Assembly (NCBI GenBank): GCA_947627985.1
Contig: CANQYD010000011.1
Coordinates: 1-57,697 of the forward strand
DNA from: an uncultured Clostridia bacterium
GTDB taxonomy: Bacteria; Bacillota; Clostridia; Oscillospirales; Ruminococcaceae
DNA length: 57,697 bases
Direction of reading: 5' to 3'
In this document: positions 1 through 49,400 of the stretch, piece by piece
Position numbering within the stretch: the stretch's first letter is position 1
Layout of the letters: every line of letters begins with the position of its first letter
Position numbers and translations under genes: made by a program
Notes under the pieces: generated by a model
Told to the model about the DNA's origin: nothing
Database searches by the model: none
What the model saw: only the letters and a program-made list of their open reading frames with translations

Positions 1-88
1 ATCGTTTACGATTGCGAAGTGCGATTGGTTGCAAAACCAGCTTGTTCACTTGAGGAAAAGCGGGGCAAAACCTTTTTATCTTGTCTCT
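1..88 (-). repeat. Mosaic hairpin repeat, copy A (partial, at window edge)
   Basis: This is a truncated copy of the multi-hairpin mosaic family. The first 45 bases match the mobile sub-module seen near 44,690 and 46,500 (GATTGCGAAGTGCGATTGG followed by CAAAACC). It is joined directly to the end module GAGGAAAAGCGGGGCAAAACC...CTTGTCTC that also closes the copy at 26,821. It stops 28 bases from the ddl stop codon, so on the minus strand it would be the 3' untranslated end of ddl. The stem that should face the AAAAGCGGG arm has been lost at the junction. Confidence 0.7.
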
Positions 89-8222: not shown

Positions 8223-8267
8223 TTTTTTTGCGGAATTAGTGATTTGGTGCGGGGAGGAGGCGGGGGT

Positions 8268-8533
8268 GAGCCTCGCTTTGCTCGGCTCCGGGCGACTTCG
8301 TCGCCGGTTTTTTGTTGGGGGGAACCCCCGGCGAGTGTTCCCCCGATGAAAACAGTCCACCGGACTGTTTTCATTTCCCCCTCCTGCGCTAATTATGATA
8401 AAAAAGCAAGACGACGGCTCACGCCGTCCTCTTGCTTAAAGGATTTCGCCCGTTGCGACGGGCGACGAGGGGCGCTGCCCCTCGACCTTGCAAGCCCTTT
8501 AAAAAGGGCTTGATCCTAAACTTGACTTGTCTC
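8268..8533 (-). repeat. Mosaic hairpin repeat, copy B
   Basis: Full copy. In + strand order: a GAGCC/GGCTC stem (8268-8288), GGCGACTTCGTCGCC followed by a GGTTTTTT run (8291-8313), a GGGGGGAACCC/GTTCCCCC stem (8317-8344), a GAAAACAGTCC/GGACTGTTTTC stem (8348-8372), a GCAAGACGACGG/CCGTCCTCTTGC stem (8406-8435), a TCGCCCG/CGGGCGA stem (8446-8465), CGAGGGGCGCTGCCCCTCG (8466-8484) and a CAAGCCC/GGGCTTG stem (8491-8512), then the end tag CTTGACTTGTCTC. It lies between two convergent genes, 45 bases after the GH43 stop, and would be read as RNA on the minus strand. Confidence 0.85.
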
Positions 8534-8548
8534 CGCTAAGGCTTGGCA

Positions 8549-8592
8549 CAGAATTTCTAACCACTATCCCTCTAACTTCTAACCTCTATCAG
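8549..8592. repeat. Heptamer repeat at the GH43 3' end
   Basis: Degenerate units of seven bases (AACTTCT, AACCTCT, ATC...) overlap the last codons of the GH43 gene. On the minus strand they read AGAGGTTAGAAGTTAGAGGG and give the stop codon. Confidence 0.55.
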
Positions 8593-10027
8593 CGAAGCTC
8601 ACCCAATCCATTTCCGCTTCGCCATCGCCTTCAAACTCGAAGTACACCGCCCTTTTCCCGATGATCCCGGCGTCGATCTTTGCCTCATGAAGCGCTTCGG
8701 TCGGGGTGAGGCTTATCTTTGCGGCGATCCTGCCCTTCCAATCATCCACCCGAACATTCACGCTCATATTCCCGGTCGAGGTCGCGGAAATAATCACCCT
8801 GTCGGGCGACTTGGTGCCGAACTGAAGGTATCTAAACCCCACCGTCGTGCCGCTTTTGATATTCACGATCGGAGAGGAAACACCGTCGATCTGCTCATAA
8901 ACCGGCTTCACATACGCCTGATGAAGCGGGCTGATGTGGCAGGCATATCCCGCGGAAATTATCTTATACGCGTCGATTCCGTTCACCGAAGCGCCGGAGG
9001 AGGTCTCCTCGACGGGCTTTGAGCCGACAGGCTCGCCGTTTACGTAGGTGATGTCGCCGATATAGATTTTCCCGTCACGACCCATGGCGATATCGACCGG
9101 CTCGATCATTCCCTGCCTTGAGAATTCGTCGGTCCCGGTGTGGCGGTGATAGAAGATGTACCACTGCCCGCCGATCTCGACAAGACCCCCGTGGTTGTTG
9201 CCCCAGCGGTATGTCTGCATGCCGGTGCCGTCCGGCATTCTGATGATCTCTCCGCCGTTGAAGGAGATGTCGCCGCCTTCACGGAAGCCTTCGAGCGGGC
9301 TGTCTGACCATTTATATGACAAAAATCCGTTGCAGGGTTCATATACCCCTAACTCGGGCACGGGCGTCATGTATCTCTTTGAATATACATAAACATATTT
9401 ACCGTTGATCTTGCGGGGGCTTGAAGCCTCGAAGAAAGCGTCGCGAAGATCGACATGATCTTTATCTCCATTCGGATTCCAGCCGTCGGGGACGTGACCC
9501 ATCGGGTGGGCGTGAAGAGTGCCCTCCTTTATCGTCGCCATATCGTCCTCAAGCTCGGCGCAGTAGCAGCCGCAGAATCCCCAATATGCATAAACTCTGC
9601 CGTCGTCATCTACCAAAATACCCGGGTCGAAGCCGAGTTTTGTGGGTTTTGGGTCGGTGAAAGGTCCGGCGGGATTTTTTGAAGAAGCGACGACTATCCT
9701 GCCGCCTTGGCGCTCGGCAGCGTAGAGGTAGAAGGTGTCGCCTTTTTGGACGACGTCGGGCGCATAGAGTATCGAGCCGTCGGAAGCGGTGTAGCAGACG
9801 CCGTGGCAAGTCCAGTCGGTGAGATCGTCCACGGGCGCGCTCCAGACGACCTGATCCCTGCCGCAGTAAGCGGTTCGTTCGGTGTCGTGGGAGCCGTAGA
9901 CATAGACGCGCTTTTCGCCGTTATATTCAAAGACGCGCGGCTCGCCGTCGGGAATGTGTTCCCAGAGCGGGAGATAGGGGTTAGCGGACTTTACGCGGGA
10001 TTTTTTTGAGATGTCGGTGGTGATCAT
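8579..10027 (-). CDS. Glycoside hydrolase family 43, xylosidase/arabinofuranosidase type
   Basis: A 482-aa cytoplasmic enzyme (no signal peptide) expected to remove xylose or arabinose from xylan fragments. The five-bladed GH43 propeller is recognisable: an Asp in the IPDGEPRVF segment near residue 27 as likely base, FDPGILVDDDGRVYAYWG as the central Asp motif, and a Glu in FFEASSPRKINGKYVYVYS as likely acid. Residues ~340-480 form a beta-rich domain ending WVSFADRG, like a CBM6-type module. The start follows AAGGAGG. The last codons and TAG stop fall inside a heptamer repeat. It is in line with the GH8 gene, separated by repeat copy C. Confidence 0.85.
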   Translation of the reverse strand: MITTDISKKSRVKSANPYLPLWEHIPDGEPRVFEYNGEKRVYVYGSHDTERTAYCGRDQVVWSAPVDDLTDWTCHGVCYTASDGSILYAPDVVQKGDTFYLYAAERQGGRIVVASSKNPAGPFTDPKPTKLGFDPGILVDDDGRVYAYWGFCGCYCAELEDDMATIKEGTLHAHPMGHVPDGWNPNGDKDHVDLRDAFFEASSPRKINGKYVYVYSKRYMTPVPELGVYEPCNGFLSYKWSDSPLEGFREGGDISFNGGEIIRMPDGTGMQTYRWGNNHGGLVEIGGQWYIFYHRHTGTDEFSRQGMIEPVDIAMGRDGKIYIGDITYVNGEPVGSKPVEETSSGASVNGIDAYKIISAGYACHISPLHQAYVKPVYEQIDGVSSPIVNIKSGTTVGFRYLQFGTKSPDRVIISATSTGNMSVNVRVDDWKGRIAAKISLTPTEALHEAKIDAGIIGKRAVYFEFEGDGEAEMDWVSFADRG

Positions 10028-10069
10028 GCGGGTGCCTCCTTAAGATGTAGTTTTATTTAAAGGTGTTAA

Positions 10070-10607
10070 TGAGACAAGATAAGTTTAGGATCAAGCCCTT
10101 TTTAAAGGGCTTGCAGGGGTCTCGGGGACAGCGTCCCCGAGTCGCTCACCGCAGTGAGCGAAATCTCTAAGCAAGAGGACGGCGGAGCCGTCGTCTTGCT
10201 TTTTTCAAAAAAGCGCAGGAAGGGGAAATGAAAACAGTCCGGCGGACTGTTTTCATCGGGGGAACCCTCGCCGGGGGTTCCCCCAACAAAAAACCGGCGA
10301 CGAAGTCGCCCGGAGCCGAGCGAAGCGAGGCTCATGCCCCCTCTCCCTTCAGGGAGAGGGGGTTGGGGGTGAGGGTAAAGCCCCTCCCCTCGGGGAGGGG
10401 TTGGGGAGGGGGACGCCGGAAAGGGGTTTGGGGAAAACCCCGCAGGGGTTGTCCCCACAGGCTTACCGAGCAGGGTAAAGCAGCAGAAGAAGCCCTCCTC
10501 CAACTTTAGGAAAGGGGGTCATAGGGGGGAAACCCTTTTATAAAGGGTTTTCCCCCTCCGGCTTGCCGAGCGAAGCGAGGCAAACAGCAGCTGATCCAAA
10601 ATTCCCG
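10070..10607 (+). repeat. Mosaic hairpin repeat, copy C, with extra C/G-rich hairpins
   Basis: Inverted full copy starting with GAGACAAGATAAGTTTAGG. It holds the AAGCCC/GGGCTT stem, CTCGGGGACAGCGTCCCCGAG, the TCGCTCACCGCAGTGAGCGA stem (10142-10161), a GCAAGAGGACGG stem, the GAAAACAGTCC stem and the GGGGGAACCC stem, then ACCGGCGACGAAGTCGCCCGG and the GAGCCGAGCG/CGAGGCTC stem. After 10,333 it continues as CCCCTCTCCC/GGGAGAGGGG and CCCCTCCCC/GGGGAGGGG hairpins, a four-G-tract segment (10392-10412) and more GGGGAAACCC/GGGTTTTCCCCC hairpins to 10,607. It fills the gap between the GH8 and GH43 genes and is the one copy not next to a stop codon in its sense direction. Confidence 0.85.
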
Positions 10608-10628
10608 CTTTGTCCCGCACTGCAATAA

Positions 10629-11765
10629 TCAATATTCCCCATACTCCCCCGCCAGCATCAGCAGCGAGAACATATACAGGCAGTTGTCGTAATACCTCCT
10701 ATTCCCGGTTCTGGGAGGCATATCCATAAACTCCCTCACAAGCTTTACCGCAAGCTCCCGCTCGTCATCGCTCGCGCCGTCTATTGCGGCAATAGAAGCC
10801 GCCGCCTTCGTCGCCTTTATCGCCACGGGGTGCATCGCACGCTCCTCGGTCAGGGTGCCGTCGGGGTGGGGCACCCTGTCCCAATTCTCCCCCGCGTCCT
10901 CAAAATATTTCTGAACCCGCCTGCATTCCCCCGGCTGCCAGGGGTCGGCTTTGTTCCACGACCAGTCGAGCGCGATGTTATATACCGTGCGGTAGCTGTC
11001 CGAGTAGTGCAGCCCCGCGTTCGGATTGAAGCTCTTTTTCAGCGCCGAGCCGTCAAAATTCGCATAATCCGAACACAGCCCGGTCTTGGGGTGGGTAGCG
11101 ATATGCAGATACTCCCGGCTTGCCGCTGCCGCTTTTTTCCAGAAGTCGCGGTCGCGATCATCGCAATTATCCGCAAAAATCTCGTAAAAATGAGGAAGAT
11201 GATAGGACGCGTCGGTAAACGGACACCCCGGCACGAATTTTATAAGGTGATTGTCGGCGGTCCACATAGCCGCGCCGGGCTTCGACCCCGGTTCGTTTCG
11301 GTGGATGCAATCCCGCAGAATCGTCTTTGCCCAGTCGGAATATGCATAAATCCCCTCGCCGTCACCCCATCTGTGGGAGGCAAAGATCAGCGCCGCAGCA
11401 TAATATTCCTCGCCGTCGGGCGCGGGACCGTGAGCGTTTTTTCTGCCGTCGGGCTTGCAGGACCACGCAAAATACCCCGCGTTTTCGCCTTCGGTCATGT
11501 ACATATTCTCCATCGACCATTTCCAGATCCTGTCGAATTCCTCTTTTTTACCGAGCTGCACGCAGATCATCATGCCGTAGGACATGCCCTCGGTCCTCGC
11601 GTCGACGTTCCCGGTGTCCTCAATATATCCCATGTCCTCGCCGACCGGGTGATATATCCTTTCGGTCCCGTCGTAAAACATGCTGTAAAAAGTTTCGGAT
11701 ATTTTTTTATCGATTTCATGCTGCGAATATCCGAGCTCCGACAGCAAATTTCTGCTCTTTTTCAT
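10629..11765 (-). CDS. rex: GH8 reducing-end xylose-releasing exo-oligoxylanase
   Basis: A 378-aa cytoplasmic GH8 enzyme that releases xylose from the reducing end of xylo-oligosaccharides (EC 3.2.1.156 in studied members). The (alpha/alpha)6 barrel motifs match this subgroup: Glu59 in DARTEGMSYGM as general acid, and an Asp in HYSDSYRTVYN near residue 250 as base; the sequence WTADNHLIKFVP and the Trp-rich DWSWNKADPW are also typical. Its ATG overlaps the DUF1292 stop by four bases (ATGA), so the two are coupled. With the GH43 gene it forms a small intracellular xylan-fragment pathway. No transporter lies next to it. Confidence 0.9.
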   Translation of the reverse strand: MKKSRNLLSELGYSQHEIDKKISETFYSMFYDGTERIYHPVGEDMGYIEDTGNVDARTEGMSYGMMICVQLGKKEEFDRIWKWSMENMYMTEGENAGYFAWSCKPDGRKNAHGPAPDGEEYYAAALIFASHRWGDGEGIYAYSDWAKTILRDCIHRNEPGSKPGAAMWTADNHLIKFVPGCPFTDASYHLPHFYEIFADNCDDRDRDFWKKAAAASREYLHIATHPKTGLCSDYANFDGSALKKSFNPNAGLHYSDSYRTVYNIALDWSWNKADPWQPGECRRVQKYFEDAGENWDRVPHPDGTLTEERAMHPVAIKATKAAASIAAIDGASDDERELAVKLVREFMDMPPRTGNRRYYDNCLYMFSLLMLAGEYGEY

Positions 11766-15882: not shown

Positions 15883-16072
15883 TCTGAAAGTTTTCGCTCG
15901 AGCCTTTTTCAAAAGGCTCGCGAGAGTCCAGAGGCGAGTAGCCTCTGGTCGCCCGTCGCAACGGGCGAAATCCTTTACGGAGTGCGCTCCGCAAGGGGTG
16001 AATTGAAAAACAATTCGGTGAATTGTTTTTCAAGAGGGGACGCTCTGCAAGAGAGGGCGTCCCCTTTTAAGC
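15883..16072 (+). repeat. Mosaic hairpin repeat, copy D (divergent stems)
   Basis: Same order of elements as copy C but almost every stem is replaced: CGAGCC/GGCTCG (15899-15920) for AAGCCC/GGGCTT; CCAGAGGC/GCCTCTGG for CTCGGGGAC/GTCCCCGAG; TCGCCCGTCGCAACGGGCGA (15949-15968); CGGAG/CTCCG; GAAAAACAATTC/GAATTGTTTTTC for GAAAACAGTCC/GGACTGTTTTC; AGGGGACGC/GCGTCCCCT for GGGGGAACC/GGTTCCCCC. It begins 17 bases after the peptidase stop. Confidence 0.85.
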
Positions 16073-20507: not shown

Positions 20508-20925
20508 AGACAAGGCAAGTTTAGGATCAAGCCCTTTTTAAAGGGCTTGCGGGCGAAATCTCTTAAGCAAAAGGACGGCGCAAGCCGTCCTCTTGCGGTT
20601 TATCGTTAATAGAGCGCAGGAGAGGGCATGAAAACAGTCCTGTGGACTGTTTTCACGGGGGGAACCCTCGCCGGGGGTTCCCCCAACAAAAACCCGGCGA
20701 CGAAGTCGCCCGGGAGCCGAGCGAAGCGAGGCACGAAAAGCCCCTCCCCGCCGGGGAGGGGTTGGGGAGGGGGAAGCCGGAAAGGGGCAGCAGAAGCCGG
20801 TTTTGTTGCCGATCGCACTTCGCAATCAAAAACGCAGGATTTCTCGTGCTCTTGGACAAAACCTCGCATCTGCGGGAACCATGCAATGGTGCCCCACACT
20901 TGCCGAGCGAAGCGAGGCAAAAAAG
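20508..20925 (+). repeat. Mosaic hairpin repeat, copy E
   Basis: Same sense as copy C. It keeps the AAGCCC/GGGCTT stem (20531-20550), then lacks the second and third hairpins, and resumes with the GCAAAAGGACGG/CCGTCCTCTTGC stem, the GAAAACAGTCC stem with a TGT loop, the GGGGGAACCC stem and CCGGCGACGAAGTCGCCCGG. It continues with a CCCCTCCCC/GGGGAGGGG hairpin, a four-G-tract segment (20753-20773) and an inverted copy of the ~85-bp mobile sub-module (20790-20880). It starts about 58 bases after the lipoprotein stop. Confidence 0.85.
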
Positions 20926-26546: not shown

Positions 26547-26821
26547 GGGTTCCGCCTCGCTTCGCTCGGCTCCGGGCGACTTCGTCGCCGGTTTTTTGTT
26601 GGGGGAACCCCCGGCGAGGGTTCCCCCCGATGAAAACAGTCCACCGGACTGTTTTCATTTCCCCTTCCTGCGCTTAGAAACGATTAACCGCAATAGGACG
26701 CCTTAAGGCGTCCTATTGCGGGGATTTCGCGCTCTGCGGAGCGCGACCAGAGGCTGCTCGCCTCTGGACTCTCGCCCGCTTTTTGAGGAAAAGCGGGGCA
26801 AAACCTTTTTGACTTGTCTCT
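26547..26821 (-). repeat. Mosaic hairpin repeat, copy F (divergent stems)
   Basis: Same order as copy B. The early part is near-identical (GGCGACTTCGTCGCC, GGGGGAACCC and GAAAACAGTCC stems), and the later stems are replaced: GCAATAGGACGCC/GGCGTCCTATTGC for GCAAGAGGACGG/CCGTCCTCTTGC; TCGCGCTC/GAGCGCGA (26727-26746); CCAGAGGC/GCCTCTGG; and CCCGCTTTT/AAAAGCGGG (26775-26797). It ends GACTTGTCTC, 29 bases from the macrodomain gene stop. Confidence 0.85.
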
Positions 26822-26849: not shown

Positions 26850-27863
26850 TCATGCCCCCAAAAGGCTCTGATCAAAGGCAAAGAGCGCCTCGTTGATCTC
26901 GAAGATGTTGTAGTTACCGTGCTCGATGAAATACTCGATGATGATGTCGAATTTGCTCGAATGGGACAGCGCAAAGCCCGCTTTTTCAAGCATTTCGCGG
27001 GTCTCCGACAGCGGCAGCTCCAGCGCGACCGCAAAGGCGATCGCAGTTGGTTTTGAGGGTCGGTAGTTCTTGTCCGAGCGGATTTTTGAAAATAATTTGC
27101 GGTCGATGTTCGCCTTTTTGTAGCACTGTGAATCGCTGATACCCCGCTCGTCGATCTTTCGCAAAAGCATCTCGGAAAAGCTCTCGTCAAGCTTGCTGAC
27201 GGCGTCGGTGAGGGAGGATTTGTCGAAGCTCTTCGTCGGCATGGGTGAGCATACTGTGAAGTCGGCTTCATGGATATTTTCGGCTGCCATCGGCATTCTG
27301 AGCATTTCCGAGCGTGCGTTGACATGCCACTCGGCGTAGCGATCATCGATATATTCTTCAATATCCTTAAATAATTTTTCGCCGATTCTGTAGGCGGCCT
27401 TGTCGAAAATCACGATATAGACGGTCATGTCGGAGTCATCGGAATCCAAAAATTCGCGAGCGGAATCGACCGCGACGGACAGCGCCTCAGCCTTCGGATA
27501 GCCGTAGACGCCGGAGGAGATGAGCGGGAAGGCGACGGTCTCGCAGCCGGCTTTTCGGGCGAGGGCAAGGGAGTTTATGTAGCAGGACCGCAGCTGCGAG
27601 CGCTCGCCGTTTTTACCGCCTTGCCAGACGGGCCCGACGGTGTGAATGACGAATTTGCAGGGCAGGCGGTAGCCTCGAGTGATCTTCGCCTCGCCGGTTT
27701 TGCAGCCGCCGAGTGTCCGGCATTCAGCCAAAAGCTCGGGACCCGCCGCGGCATGAATCGCGCCGTCGACGCCTCCTCCGCCCAGCAGCGAGCTGTTTGC
27801 GGCGTTGACAATGGCGTCGGCTTTCATTTTTGTGATGTCCTGACGGACGATGCGGATGGGCAT
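26850..27863 (-). CDS. Macrodomain (ADP-ribose) protein with C-terminal helix-turn-helix-like domain
   Basis: A 337-aa two-domain protein. Residues 1-175 are an ADP-ribose-binding macrodomain of the O-acetyl-ADP-ribose deacetylase type: [27 protein letters not shown] binds the ligand, and the ISSGVYGYP loop holds the phosphates. Residues ~230-337 form an all-helical domain ([20 protein letters not shown], then [19 protein letters not shown]) resembling an XRE-type helix-turn-helix. It may link removal of ADP-ribose to gene control; this is inference. The start follows GAAAGGAG, and a perfect promoter precedes it. Confidence 0.85.
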
Positions 27864-44474: not shown

Positions 44475-45072
44475 TCGCTCCGACTTGCGACAAAAACTCT
44501 CAGAGCACGAGCAATCTTGAGTTTTTGATTGTGAAATGCGATGAGCAAGTTTTTGCGCAAGTCATGCCCCCTCTCCCAAGGGAGAGGAGGCATATGAGCC
44601 TCGCTTCGCTCGGCTCTGTGGGGCACCCCTGCGGGGTTCCCGCAGACGCGGGGTTTTGTCCAAGAGCACGAGCAATCCTGCGTTTTCGATTGCGAAGTGC
44701 GATTGGTTACAAAACCGGCTTCTGCTGGCACCCTCCGGCTTCGGGCGACTTCGTCGCCGGTTTTTTGTTGGGGGAACCCCCGGCGAGGGTTCCCCCGATG
44801 AAAACAGTCCACCGGACTGTTTTCATTTCCCCTTCCTGCGCTCATTACGATAAAAAAGCAAGAGGACGGCTCACGCCGTCCTCTTGCTTAGAGATTTCGC
44901 TCACTGCGGTGAGCGACTCGGGGACGCTGCCTTACATGCGGGGTTTTGTCTGCAAGAACAAGCAATCCTGCATTTTTGATTGCGAAGTGCGAGCAGGAAC
45001 AAAACCGGCATGTAATGGAGACCCCCGCAAGCCCTTTAAAAAGGGCTTGATACTAAACTTGTCTTGTCTCAA
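44475..45072 (-). repeat. Mosaic hairpin repeat, copy G, with nested sub-modules
   Basis: The longest copy, same order as B. It carries three copies of an ~85-bp sub-module with core GCAATCCTGCG...GATTGCGAAGTGCGA, at about 44,485-44,560, 44,640-44,730 and 44,931-45,018. The last splits the CTCGGGGAC hairpin. It also has a CCCCTCTCCC/GGGAGAGG hairpin, a GGGGCACCCC/GGGGTTCCC hairpin, the GGCGAC, GGGGGAACCC, GAAAACAGTCC, GCAAGAGGACGG and TCGCTCAC/GTGAGCGA stems (last one 44897-44916) and the AAGCCC/GGGCTT stem, then CTTGTCTTGTCTC. The 44,188-44,474 stretch before it holds no gene that I can see. Confidence 0.85.
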
Positions 45073-46469: not shown

Positions 46470-46922
46470 CGACTTGCGACAAAAACTCTCAGAGCACAAG
46501 CAATCCCGCGTTTTTGATTGCGAAGTGCGATTGGTTGCTAAACCGGCTTCTGCTGACACCCCTTCGGCTTCGGGCGACTTCGTCGCCGTTTTTTGTTGGG
46601 GGAACCCTTTGCAAGGGTTCCCCCATACCCCCTCCTAATGTGGGGCACCCCTGCGGGGTTCCCCACACCCCTCCGGCTTCGGGCGACTTCGTCGCCGGTT
46701 TTTTGTTGGGGGAACCCCCGGCGAGGGTTCCCCCTATGAAAACAGTCCACCGGACTGTTTTCATTCCCCCCTCCTGCGCTTATGAACGAAAAAAAGCAAG
46801 ACGACGGCTTGCGCCGTCCTCTTGCTTTGGGGATTTCGCCCGTTGCGACGGGCGACGAGGGGCGCCGCCCCTCGACCCTGCAAGCCCTTTAAAAAGGGCT
46901 TGATCCTAAACTCGCCTTGTCT
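46470..46922 (-). repeat. Mosaic hairpin repeat, copy H
   Basis: Same order as B. It begins with the ~85-bp sub-module (46475-46560), then GGCGACTTCGTCGCC and a GGGGGAACCCTT/AAGGGTTCCCCC stem (46598-46624). It then repeats that pair (46681-46733, loop changed to CCCGGCGAGG) after a GGGGCACCCC/GGGGTTCCCC hairpin, so part of the mosaic is doubled. It ends with the GAAAACAGTCC, GCAAGACGACGG, TCGCCCG/CGGGCGA (46836-46855), CGAGGGGCGCCGCCCCTCG and AAGCCC/GGGCTT stems and CTCGCCTTGTCTC, 46 bases from the glgP stop. Confidence 0.85.
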
Positions 46923-46967
46923 CTCAAAAGCCAAAGTGTAAAATCCGAAATCTGCCCGTCTGATCTC

Positions 46968-49400
46968 TTACTTCTTCTTGGGCGGGTCCAGCTTCCAGAT
47001 GTTCTTCGCGTACTCCTCCACCGCTCTGTCTGCGGAAAATACGCCCGAGCCCGCGATATTCATCAGCGACATCGACTGCCACTTCATCGTATCGTTGTAG
47101 AGCCTCGAAGCCTGCTCCTGAGCCTCTTTGTAGGACTCGAAGTCGGCAAGCACCATGTAGGGGTCCCTGAACTTGAGGCTGGTGACGATGTCGTCGAAGT
47201 GGTTGCCGATAAATCCTGCGGCGAGCCTGTCGATGACCGCTCTCACAGCCTGATCGTTGTTGTAAAGAAGCGACGGGGAATAATTCTTGCCCCTCTCCTC
47301 CGCTTCCTCGGCGGTCATGCCGAAGTAGATGATGTTCTCCTCGCCGGCGGCGTTGCCGATCTCGATATTGGCGCCGTCGCGGGTGCCCAAAGTCACGGCG
47401 CCGTTGAGCATCAGCTTCATGTTGCCCGTGCCGGAAGCCTCGGTGCCCGCAAGGGAAATCTGCTCAGAAATCTCGGAAGCCGGCATCAGCTGCTCCGAGA
47501 GGGAGACGCTGTAGTTTTCGAGGAATACGACGTTCAGCTTGCTTCTGACTTGGGGATTTTTCCTGATGTCCTCGCCGATGCTCCAGATCAGCTTGATGAT
47601 CTGCTTCGCGAGATAATATCCCGGCGCCGACTTAGCCGCGAAAATGTAGGTCTTCGGGGTGAACTCGGCATTCGGATTGTTAAGAATGTACTCGTACTCG
47701 GAGATTATGTTCAGCGCATTGAGGTGCTGGCGCTTGTACTCGTGAAGCCTCTTTACCTGCACGTCGAAGATGGAATTCGGGTCGATGACGACGTTTGAAT
47801 ACCTCTTGACGAACTTCGCAAAGTCGGTCTTGTTGGCGAGCTTTGCGGCGGCGAGCTTCTCAAGGACGTCCTTGTCATTTTTATATGCGGCAAACTTCCC
47901 GAGCTCCTTGGCGTCCTTTCTGTAGCCGGTGCCGATGGTGGAATCGAGGAGGTCGCAGAGCGGCTTATTCGACTGGCAGAGCCAGCGGCGGTAAGCTATG
48001 CCGTTGGTAACATTTGTGAATTTATAGGGCATGTGTCCGTACTCGTCGTGGAAAACGGACTTTTTGATGATGTCGGAGTGGATTTCCGAAACGCCGTTGA
48101 CCTTGTAGGAGGCGGCGACGCAGAGTTTAGCCATGTGGATAACTCCGCCCTGGATTATCGACATTCTCTTTACGCGGTCGTCATGATAGGCGTCCCAGAG
48201 CTCGGCGCAGTAGCGGTTGTTGATCTCGACGATGATCGAGAAAATCCTCGGCACGACCGACTGGAAGAGGTTCTGATTCCACTTCTCCAGCGCCTCTGCC
48301 ATGACGGTGTGGTTGGTGTAGGCGAAGGTATGGGTGACGATGTTCCACGCCTTATCCCAGCTGTATCCGCAGTCGTCAAGGAGGATTCTCATCAGCTCGG
48401 GGATCGCAAGGGTCGGGTGGGTGTCGTTTATCTGGATCGCGACCTTGTCCGCGAAATTGTCAAGGGTGCCGTAGGTCGCCATGTGGTGGTTGACGATATC
48501 TCCGACCGAAGCGGCGCACATGAAGTACTGCTGACGAAGCCTTAAGCTCTGACCCTCAAGGTGGTTGTCGTTAGGATATAAAATCTTTGAGATCGCCTGG
48601 GAGATGAAATTCTGCCCGAGGGCTTTTTCATAGTTGCCGGAGTTGAAGCTGTTCATGTCAAAGACCGGGCTCTCAGCCTTCCAAAGTCTGAGCTTTGAGA
48701 CCGCCTTTGAATCGTATCCCGCGACGAACATATCATAGGGAACCGCCATTACGGTGGTGTAGTTGTCGTGGGTGACGTGGTGATACTGCTGATCCCAATA
48801 CTCGCGGAGCTGACCGTCGAAGTGGACCTCGATCTGCTGCTCCTGACGCGGAACCAGCCACACGCTTCCTCCCGGGAGCCAGTTGTCGGGAAGCTCGGTC
48901 TGCCAGCCATCCTCGATCTTCTGGCGGAAGATGCCGTACTCATAGAGTATCGAATATCCTGTGGCGGGATAACCGTCGGTGGCAAGACCGTCGAGATAGC
49001 ACGCCGCCAAACGTCCCAAGCCGCCGTTTCCGAGACCCGCGTCCGGCTCGCACTCATAGAGCGAGCTGAGCTTTACTCCGAAAGTCTTCAAGACATTTTC
49101 GGCGGTTTCGGTGAGCCCCAAGTTAAAGAGGGTGGACTTTAAGGACCTGCCCATCAAGAACTCCATCGAGAGATAGTAAACCTGTTTTCTGCCCTGACTG
49201 TGCACCATGTTGGTGTAGCTGCGTCTGCGTTCCTGAAGAATCGGGACCAAGAGCGCCGCCAGAGCGGTATAATAATGCTGATCCGAGGCGAGATCCGGCG
49301 TTACGCCGAATTTTTCCATCAATTTGTTCTGAAGCTTCTCCGGGGTGATTTCTTTTTCGAGGGCAGCAAGCTCGGCTGCCTTTGCAGATATCCTTGCCAA
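46968..49400 (-). CDS. glgP: Glycogen/starch phosphorylase
   Basis: An 810-aa GT35 phosphorylase that frees glucose-1-phosphate from glycogen or starch in the cytoplasm. The PLP-binding lysine lies in EASGTGNMKLMLNGAVTLGTRDGANIEI near residue 650; the N-terminal domain has YYLSMEFLMGRSL and GNGGLGRLAACYLDG. The start is TTG after AAAGGAG (eight-base gap), with a perfect promoter upstream. It is a single gene; the heptamer and repeat copy H follow its stop. Confidence 0.96.
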   Translation of the reverse strand: MARISAKAAELAALEKEITPEKLQNKLMEKFGVTPDLASDQHYYTALAALLVPILQERRRSYTNMVHSQGRKQVYYLSMEFLMGRSLKSTLFNLGLTETAENVLKTFGVKLSSLYECEPDAGLGNGGLGRLAACYLDGLATDGYPATGYSILYEYGIFRQKIEDGWQTELPDNWLPGGSVWLVPRQEQQIEVHFDGQLREYWDQQYHHVTHDNYTTVMAVPYDMFVAGYDSKAVSKLRLWKAESPVFDMNSFNSGNYEKALGQNFISQAISKILYPNDNHLEGQSLRLRQQYFMCAASVGDIVNHHMATYGTLDNFADKVAIQINDTHPTLAIPELMRILLDDCGYSWDKAWNIVTHTFAYTNHTVMAEALEKWNQNLFQSVVPRIFSIIVEINNRYCAELWDAYHDDRVKRMSIIQGGVIHMAKLCVAASYKVNGVSEIHSDIIKKSVFHDEYGHMPYKFTNVTNGIAYRRWLCQSNKPLCDLLDSTIGTGYRKDAKELGKFAAYKNDKDVLEKLAAAKLANKTDFAKFVKRYSNVVIDPNSIFDVQVKRLHEYKRQHLNALNIISEYEYILNNPNAEFTPKTYIFAAKSAPGYYLAKQIIKLIWSIGEDIRKNPQVRSKLNVVFLENYSVSLSEQLMPASEISEQISLAGTEASGTGNMKLMLNGAVTLGTRDGANIEIGNAAGEENIIYFGMTAEEAEERGKNYSPSLLYNNDQAVRAVIDRLAAGFIGNHFDDIVTSLKFRDPYMVLADFESYKEAQEQASRLYNDTMKWQSMSLMNIAGSGVFSADRAVEEYAKNIWKLDPPKKK

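Follow-up and report, generated by a model that had tools for sequence, protein, structure and literature searches.

The window analysed here, a stretch of 57,697 nt, was contig 11 in the genome assembly of an uncultured Clostridia bacterium (2.16 Mb in 72 contigs, 99.2% complete). Among its genes, which include ORF 46968-49400 and ORF 26850-27863, lay eight copies, designated A to H, of a hairpin train. In the direction termed the head orientation, a full copy started with GAGACAAG and proceeded through slots 1, 2 and 3, the motif AATC and slot 4, followed by a G-rich linker, slots 5 and 6, and then slots 7 and 8 with more palindromes after them. Slot 3 had the architecture TCG-5 bp-CGCA-5 bp-CGA, then AATC. 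The copies had been listed in a reading made from the letters alone (the sequence-only reading), which took them for a probable structured RNA family with covarying stems. The stems and loops that it quoted were found where it had placed them, its alleles of slots 1 and 5 matched, and a pattern scan located its slot 3 alleles, CCCGT in copies B, D and H, CTCAC in C and G, and CGCTC in F. All eight copies were located, but two of them were incomplete, that at 1-88 running into the contig edge and that at 20508-20925 being devoid of slots 2 and 3. The features are as follows.

1..88, minus strand: copy A, truncated at the contig edge, slot 1 region and second palindromic insert only
8268..8533, minus strand: copy B, full train, 5' end at 8533 and slot 8 at 8270
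8526..8533, minus strand: copy B, 5' end GAGACAAG
8491..8512, minus strand: copy B, slot 1 hairpin, allele CAAGCCC/GGGCTTG
8466..8484, minus strand: copy B, slot 2 hairpin, allele CGAGGGGC/GCCCCTCG
8446..8465, minus strand: copy B, slot 3 hairpin, stem allele CCCGT, loop CGCA
8404..8437, minus strand: copy B, slot 4 hairpin then T-run, loop GTGA, an intrinsic terminator by form
8346..8374, minus strand: copy B, slot 5 hairpin ATGAAAACAGTCC-GGT-GGACTGTTTTCAT
8318..8344, minus strand: copy B, slot 6 hairpin
8291..8305, minus strand: copy B, slot 7 hairpin GGCGACGAAGTCGCC
8270..8286, minus strand: copy B, slot 8 palindrome, GCCGAGCGAAGCGAGGC bar one base, read off the sequence
10071..10607, plus strand: copy C, slots 1-8 and more palindromes
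15887..16072, plus strand: copy D, slot 1 allele GAGCC, second tail class (CAAGGGGTGAATT ... GCGTCCCCT)
20508..20925, plus strand: copy E, without slots 2-3; slots 4-8, followed by a palindromic insert of a second kind
26547..26821, minus strand: copy F, slot 1 allele CCCGC, slot 3 CGCTC
44475..45072, minus strand: copy G, slot 2 interrupted by the second palindromic element (TTACATGC...GCATGTAA)
46470..46923, minus strand: copy H, beginning about 45 nt past the stop of ORF 46968-49400 (minus strand), slots 6-7 doubled
8444-8465 (minus), 15949-15970 (plus) and 46834-46855 (minus): slot 3 pattern matches, CCCGT
10142-10163 (plus) and 44895-44916 (minus): slot 3 pattern matches, CTCAC
26725-26746 (minus): slot 3 pattern match, CGCTC
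44932-45015, and about 20790-20875, 44640-44730 and 46470-46550: second palindromic element

The motif GACAAG occurred 45-100 nt ahead of slot 3 in 63 of the 90 cores (slots 1 to 3) of this genome in which slot 3 was perfectly paired. For 8318-8533, RNA folding gave a z-score of -8.2 on one strand and -9.0 on the other; since both strands folded strongly, hairpins are indicated but the strand is not, and fold energy was uninformative in this respect. An extra GGAU/AUCC helix closing slots 1-3 in the fold was dropped; it was possible in 15 of 51 cores of this genome and 4 of 123 others.

A search of the genome with the slot 3 pattern TCG-5 bp-CGCA-5 bp-CGAAA, which puts no constraint on the five inner pairs, gave 122 exact matches, or one per about 18 kb, against none for the backwards control, so that the repetition noted in the window is far beyond chance. 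Covariance model R1, covering slots 1-3 and built from 65 cores of many species, indicated at least 140 copies in the genome, since 140 of the 147 candidates scored reached E 0.01. In the window it recovered seven copies, the last two weakly because of an insert (44891-44977) and the deletion of slots 2-3 (20516-20562), respectively. Within the genus, R1 matched 19 to 140 times in 12 of 31 genomes, 9 times in one and 0 to 3 times in 18. With E 1e-4 as the cut-off, R1 had matches in 67 of the 394 genomes sampled from the order, under 10 family labels, and in a sample of the phylum it matched 5 of 398 genomes, four of them from the order (the source genome included) and the lone carrier outside (G178) with a weak match of 42.6 bits. 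Perfect slot 3 hairpins on public contigs belonged, among the matches listed, to Butyricicoccus pullicaecorum, Pseudoflavonifractor, Ruminococcus and other Oscillospiraceae records. We infer that the family belongs to Oscillospirales-type Clostridia, the order being named from the titles of these public carriers.

No Rfam model matched the window at its gathering score, in line with the sequence-only reading, which had recognized no named family, and a tRNA search found none. The slot 1-6 stretch of copy D had no match in the plasmid and phage collections. Pattern matches on viral contigs numbered 114, of which 110 paired about as chance would; the other four (L230, L246, L279, L320) had perfect stems, against 0.4% expected, and look like real cores, so that either the core may occur in prophages or these viral labels may be wrong. 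In the open-licence literature, literal-sequence searches included, no paper on a hairpin-train family was found among the matches listed.

Within the source genome, the variants of each slot were few. The 95 cores carried slot 3 alleles CCCGT (37), CGCTC (36), CTCAC (11) and CTCGT (8) and three singletons, while slot 1 fell into four classes and slot 2 into five, plus unclassified entries. Slots 1 to 4 formed 73 distinct combinations in the 95 copies, when the unclassified entries (13 in slot 1, 5 in slot 2 and 11 in slot 4) were each lumped as one class. Neighbouring slots were weakly linked (Cramer's V 0.36 for slots 1-2 and 0.42 for slots 2-3), slots 3 and 4 were unlinked (0.22 versus 0.25 after shuffling), and slot 4 was strongly linked with the tail (0.72). 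With so few alleles in so many combinations, the paired differences among the window copies are mostly the exchange of ready-made hairpins. Pairing is maintained among these copies, as the sequence-only reading had held, but what it read as paired change consists mostly of whole alleles drawn from a small, reshuffled pool. One copy combined the 5' arm of one allele with the 3' arm of another (TCGCTCGTCGCAACGGGCGAAA), which suggests an intermediate or a recombinant. As a warning for similar cases, what looks like covariation among the copies within a genome can be the shuffling of alleles.

Pairing was also assessed across species with a stem-blind test, in which loci were fetched with TCGCNNNNCGCANNNNGCGAAATC, a string silent on four inner stem positions. 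Watson-Crick pairs at all four positions were present in 102 of 127 matches, in 30 different stems; of the remainder, 6 matches had three pairs and 19 had 0 to 2. Among the matches listed, 80 stretches were titled. Fifteen bore titles of Proteobacteria or other non-Clostridia and had at most three pairs, none being perfect; the other 65, comprising 63 with Clostridia-type names and two titled only 'uncultured bacterium', included 62 perfect stems and three with three of the four pairs (L106, L144, L163). Slot 3 pairing thus follows taxonomy. In the source genome, 90 of 95 cores were perfect over the five inner pairs of slot 3, the imperfect ones being four with a single mismatch, all G.T, and one with two mismatches; among 100 slot 3 places listed from this genome and read by eye, five single mismatches were seen, four G.T and one C.A.

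A second test used alignment A2, which was hand-picked for intact hairpins, so that its 95.1% pairing is biased, more so than the stem-blind set. Its covariation score was 0.518; shuffling lowered this to 0.179 and sliding to at most 0.183, and 18 of its 23 pairs had changed on both sides; one of five measures, the number of further pair types, showed no excess (41 versus 44.2 in shuffles). The slot 3 loop was CGCA in 29 of 30 hairpins from model-fetched loci, and likewise in wider sets (79 of 79 in the source genome, 55 of 56 in other genomes and 85 of 86 on public contigs), which were retrieved in large part with patterns that specify CGCA or with a model trained on it. A stem that is free while its loop and flank are nearly fixed is read as recognition of the hairpin. 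It is the comparison across species, and not that of the window copies, that reveals real compensatory change. Hence whole-cassette recombination, which the sequence-only reading had set against its own proposal, applies in part, as allele shuffling within the genome, but the stems of different species do covary.

Covariation of this kind could arise without structural selection, if template switching during replication of a palindrome rewrote one arm from the other; such switching has been proposed for RNA hairpins in the available text of PMC8794818. One-sided changes were so few (20, versus 299 two-sided and 71 unpaired, in the 1442 cells of the hand-picked A2) that rewriting of an arm in one step is attractive, and the perfection of 90 of the 95 slot 3 stems agrees with it. 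Neutral upkeep of this sort, however, leaves the fixed slot 3 loop and 3' flank unexplained, as well as the spread to 140 copies, and we hold it to be quite improbable as the whole explanation; template switching may instead be how the stems change.

Evidence for a role at the RNA level came mainly from slot 4. A hairpin of at least 9 bp lay within 85 nt in 74 of the 95 source-genome cores, with TTTT at its 3' base in 61 of the 74. Where its loop had four bases, 45 of 64 loops were GNRA in the head orientation and none was the reverse complement of GNRA, counts that come from related copies and hence do not represent independent events. By form, slot 4 looks like an intrinsic terminator in this species, and this is the main RNA-level sign. 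In other genomes, 8 of 136 cores had a hairpin and T-run behind, a lower bound because the best hairpin only was considered. A hairpin in the place of slot 4 was seen by eye at loci of Butyricicoccus and of genome G141.

The upstream gene lay on the strand of the head in 64 of 84 source-genome copies (p 1.6e-6), and the core was a median of 49 nt past the stop of that gene, the core start being taken as 75 nt before slot 3. This bias is in part due to convergent gaps, which yield it in either orientation. Of the informative cases here, 26 were sense and 13 were antisense (p 0.053); in other genomes, cores flanked by same-direction genes were sense to them in 31 cases and antisense in 23 (p 0.34). 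Over slots 2, 3 and 5, G.T mismatches numbered 22 and A.C mismatches 12 among 3262 cells (p 0.12), in a set that contains some chance matches and in which the 5' arm of slot 5 was set by the search string.

These observations bear on the proposal of a structured RNA family, according to which the train would be transcribed from the gene ahead and its RNA hairpins selected for an RNA job such as protein binding, stability or acting as a sponge. Paired change with a fixed loop, the same-strand upstream gene at short distance, the restriction of slot 4 GNRA loops to one strand with T-runs after them, and the G.T nature of all four single slot 3 mismatches in 95 cores are as such an RNA would have them. 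On the other hand, the strand bias shrinks once convergent gaps are set aside, orientation being near-equal elsewhere; mismatches in slots 2, 3 and 5 are rare, with G.T not clearly above A.C; the terminator form is seen behind few cores elsewhere; and copy number ranges from 0 to 140 within one genus. A structured RNA is possible, with slot 4 in the source species as its direct support, where the terminator form with GNRA loops agrees with the proposal; for the family as a whole, we consider it unlikely, and its distribution and copy number are more like a mobile mosaic repeat's. If recombination had duplicated ordinary intrinsic terminators, the form of slot 4 and the position of copies behind genes would be accounted for, but the part shared between species is slots 1-3, and few cores elsewhere had a hairpin with a T-run behind; this explanation is therefore most improbable. 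What the evidence favours is a family of modular repeats not described so far, and not one single RNA gene.

The placement of the copies was examined with codon-scored gene calls, which superseded the counts of a crude ORF caller (21 of 45 cores of this genome and 53 of 118 others in ORFs). None of 86 copies in the source genome, and 5 of 136 elsewhere, lay inside a called gene. Copies occupied 31 convergent versus 6 divergent gaps in the source genome and 34 versus 10 in other genomes; the 42 neighbouring gene pairs of the window comprised 4 convergent and 5 divergent ones. In the window, a core is present behind ORF 46968-49400, which we take to be glycogen phosphorylase, and behind ORF 26850-27863. 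In relatives, the model found cores in L360, L362 and L376 among 30 loci of the former and in L514 among 19 of the 24 loci of the latter, in each case more than 1 kb off or on the opposite side; the five omitted were short or second matches, and some of the loci compared end shortly past the gene. Copy positions differ from those in relatives at these two loci. The copies had a 5' end conserved in many cases in the source genome and a variable 3' end; no target duplication or empty site was seen, and the closest members of the genus were about 77% identical at the gene used. Contigs C3, C6, C34 and C68 of the source assembly (G000) begin or end inside a copy (L015, L018, L021, L029); contig ends within copies are expected if repeats break assemblies.

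Presence of a candidate enzyme did not track copy number for Y1_Tnp among 20 genomes, or for RVT_1 and IS110 among 31 genomes; the source genome had a single RVT_1 match, below the cut-off, and no IS110 match. These counts bear on whether the hairpins could be a REP family moved by a REP-associated Y1 transposase (RAYT). High copy number, stems differing between species and two Y1_Tnp matches in the source genome would suit such a family. Yet no Y1_Tnp was found in carriers with 63, 73 and 32 model matches (G022, G028 and G003, respectively) or with 49 pattern matches (G060). Moreover, within 8 nt of slot 3, on either side and strand, GTAG occurred in none of 90 perfect cores of the source genome and 3 of 159 others, and CGTC, also within 8 nt, in none of either set. 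It is highly improbable that the train is a REP/RAYT family.

Further palindromes were associated with the trains. The slot 5 hairpin, GAAAACAGTCC-NNN-GGACTGTTTTC (8346-8374, 10228-10256 and others in the window), was nearly letter-identical far beyond the order, being found on plasmids of Paracoccus, Neorhizobium, Allorhizobium, Phaeobacter and Phyllobacterium and less closely of Moraxella (34 records, E up to 10), and on 14 viral-contig stretches; on one Paracoccus plasmid it lay within an annotated IS110 transposase gene. From its sequence, slot 5 may be a separate palindrome crossing phyla. A plasmid named as of Subdoligranulum variabile (OY725877.1, L450) contained a single palindrome resembling slot 5 and A-rich on its 3' side, at a place where no features are annotated. 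RF02604 BASRCI153, a Brucella sRNA with a consensus hairpin like slot 5, was the best permissive Rfam match in 8240-10640, with slots 5-6 well aligned; it was rejected at 27.3 bits, far under the gathering score of 137. The second palindromic element (about 85 bp, GGTTTTGTT...CGCACTTCGCAATC...GACAAAACC) was located within slot 2 or between modules in several copies, and in relatives the slot 2 and slot 6 loops contained other inserts (L071, L072, L081). In the source genome, at loci L001-L060, the zone 20-70 nt ahead of the 5' end GAGACAAG contained short near-repeat runs such as AGAGGTTAGAAGTCAGA in many copies, and a weak motif ATTCTGCAC..AGCCTTAG.

By analogy, the kind of element that the train resembles most is BOX or BIME. 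To our knowledge, BOX sequences differ from those of the train. The train shares with BOX-like mosaics ordered modules, their presence, absence and exchange, an intergenic position and a preference for convergent gaps. In the available text of PMC3049150, BOX of Streptococcus pneumoniae is described as a modular interspersed element that would form hairpins if transcribed, for which mobility and an effect on co-transcribed genes are proposed, and which is over-represented, with RUP and SPRITE, in convergent gaps, the three being read as possible mobile parasites. As described there, BOX varies in the number of boxB modules, whereas the train has alternative stems per slot and is spread through an order. 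REP/BIME palindromes, tagged with GTAG or CGTC, resemble it in being high-copy, often combined hairpins with alternative complementary stem residues, according to the text of PMC3733652 available, in which G.T pairs are said to be often seen in the stems and 'clostridi' and 'firmicutes' are absent from the main text. The train, in contrast, has rare G.T pairs, almost no GTAG and no CGTC at slot 3, no Y1 link and a three-hairpin core. MITEs such as Correia, RUP, ERIC and RPE are likewise short, base-paired, multi-copy elements with no enzyme of their own, as outlined in the accessible part of PMC2229807; MITEs are marked by terminal inverted repeats and target-site duplication, while the train has a 5' end conserved in many copies of the source genome and a 3' end that varies.

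Taken together, these data make it fairly likely that the trains form a family of modular, intergenic and probably mobile repeats, built as a hairpin train with a three-hairpin core of slots 1-3. Copies would be spread by a putative trans-acting enzyme that reads the hairpins, with loop and flank read as sequence and the stem as shape, so that a stem could drift while remaining paired; modules would be exchanged by recombination among copies, and insertion would be tolerated mainly behind genes. In the source species, the terminator form of slot 4 suggests that many copies probably end the transcripts of the gene ahead, a use that would be a local addition and not the common function. Against mobility, no mobilizing enzyme was identified among the Y1_Tnp, RVT_1 and IS110 families, and the copy D stretch had no plasmid or phage match, though four viral-contig matches had perfect stems; the fixation of the loop over many species, too, exceeds what a plain parasite would need, which leaves room for a cellular function. 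A more specific version is tentative and in our view rather unlikely, namely that the trains are an undescribed hairpin-array mobile element, in which the putative trans enzyme would recognize a single-stranded chain of hairpins by loop and flank and insert it into gene ends, the copies trading slots, each species having its own stem alphabet and hosts using the arrays as transcript ends.

The hairpin-train family stands outside all Rfam models at threshold, as searched in the window. A fixed loop combined with a freely changing, pairing stem in many species provides a natural experiment in which one-step template switching can be compared with change in two steps. A repeat of this density, in an order to which many inhabitants of the gut and rumen belong, would shape both transcript ends and genome assembly.
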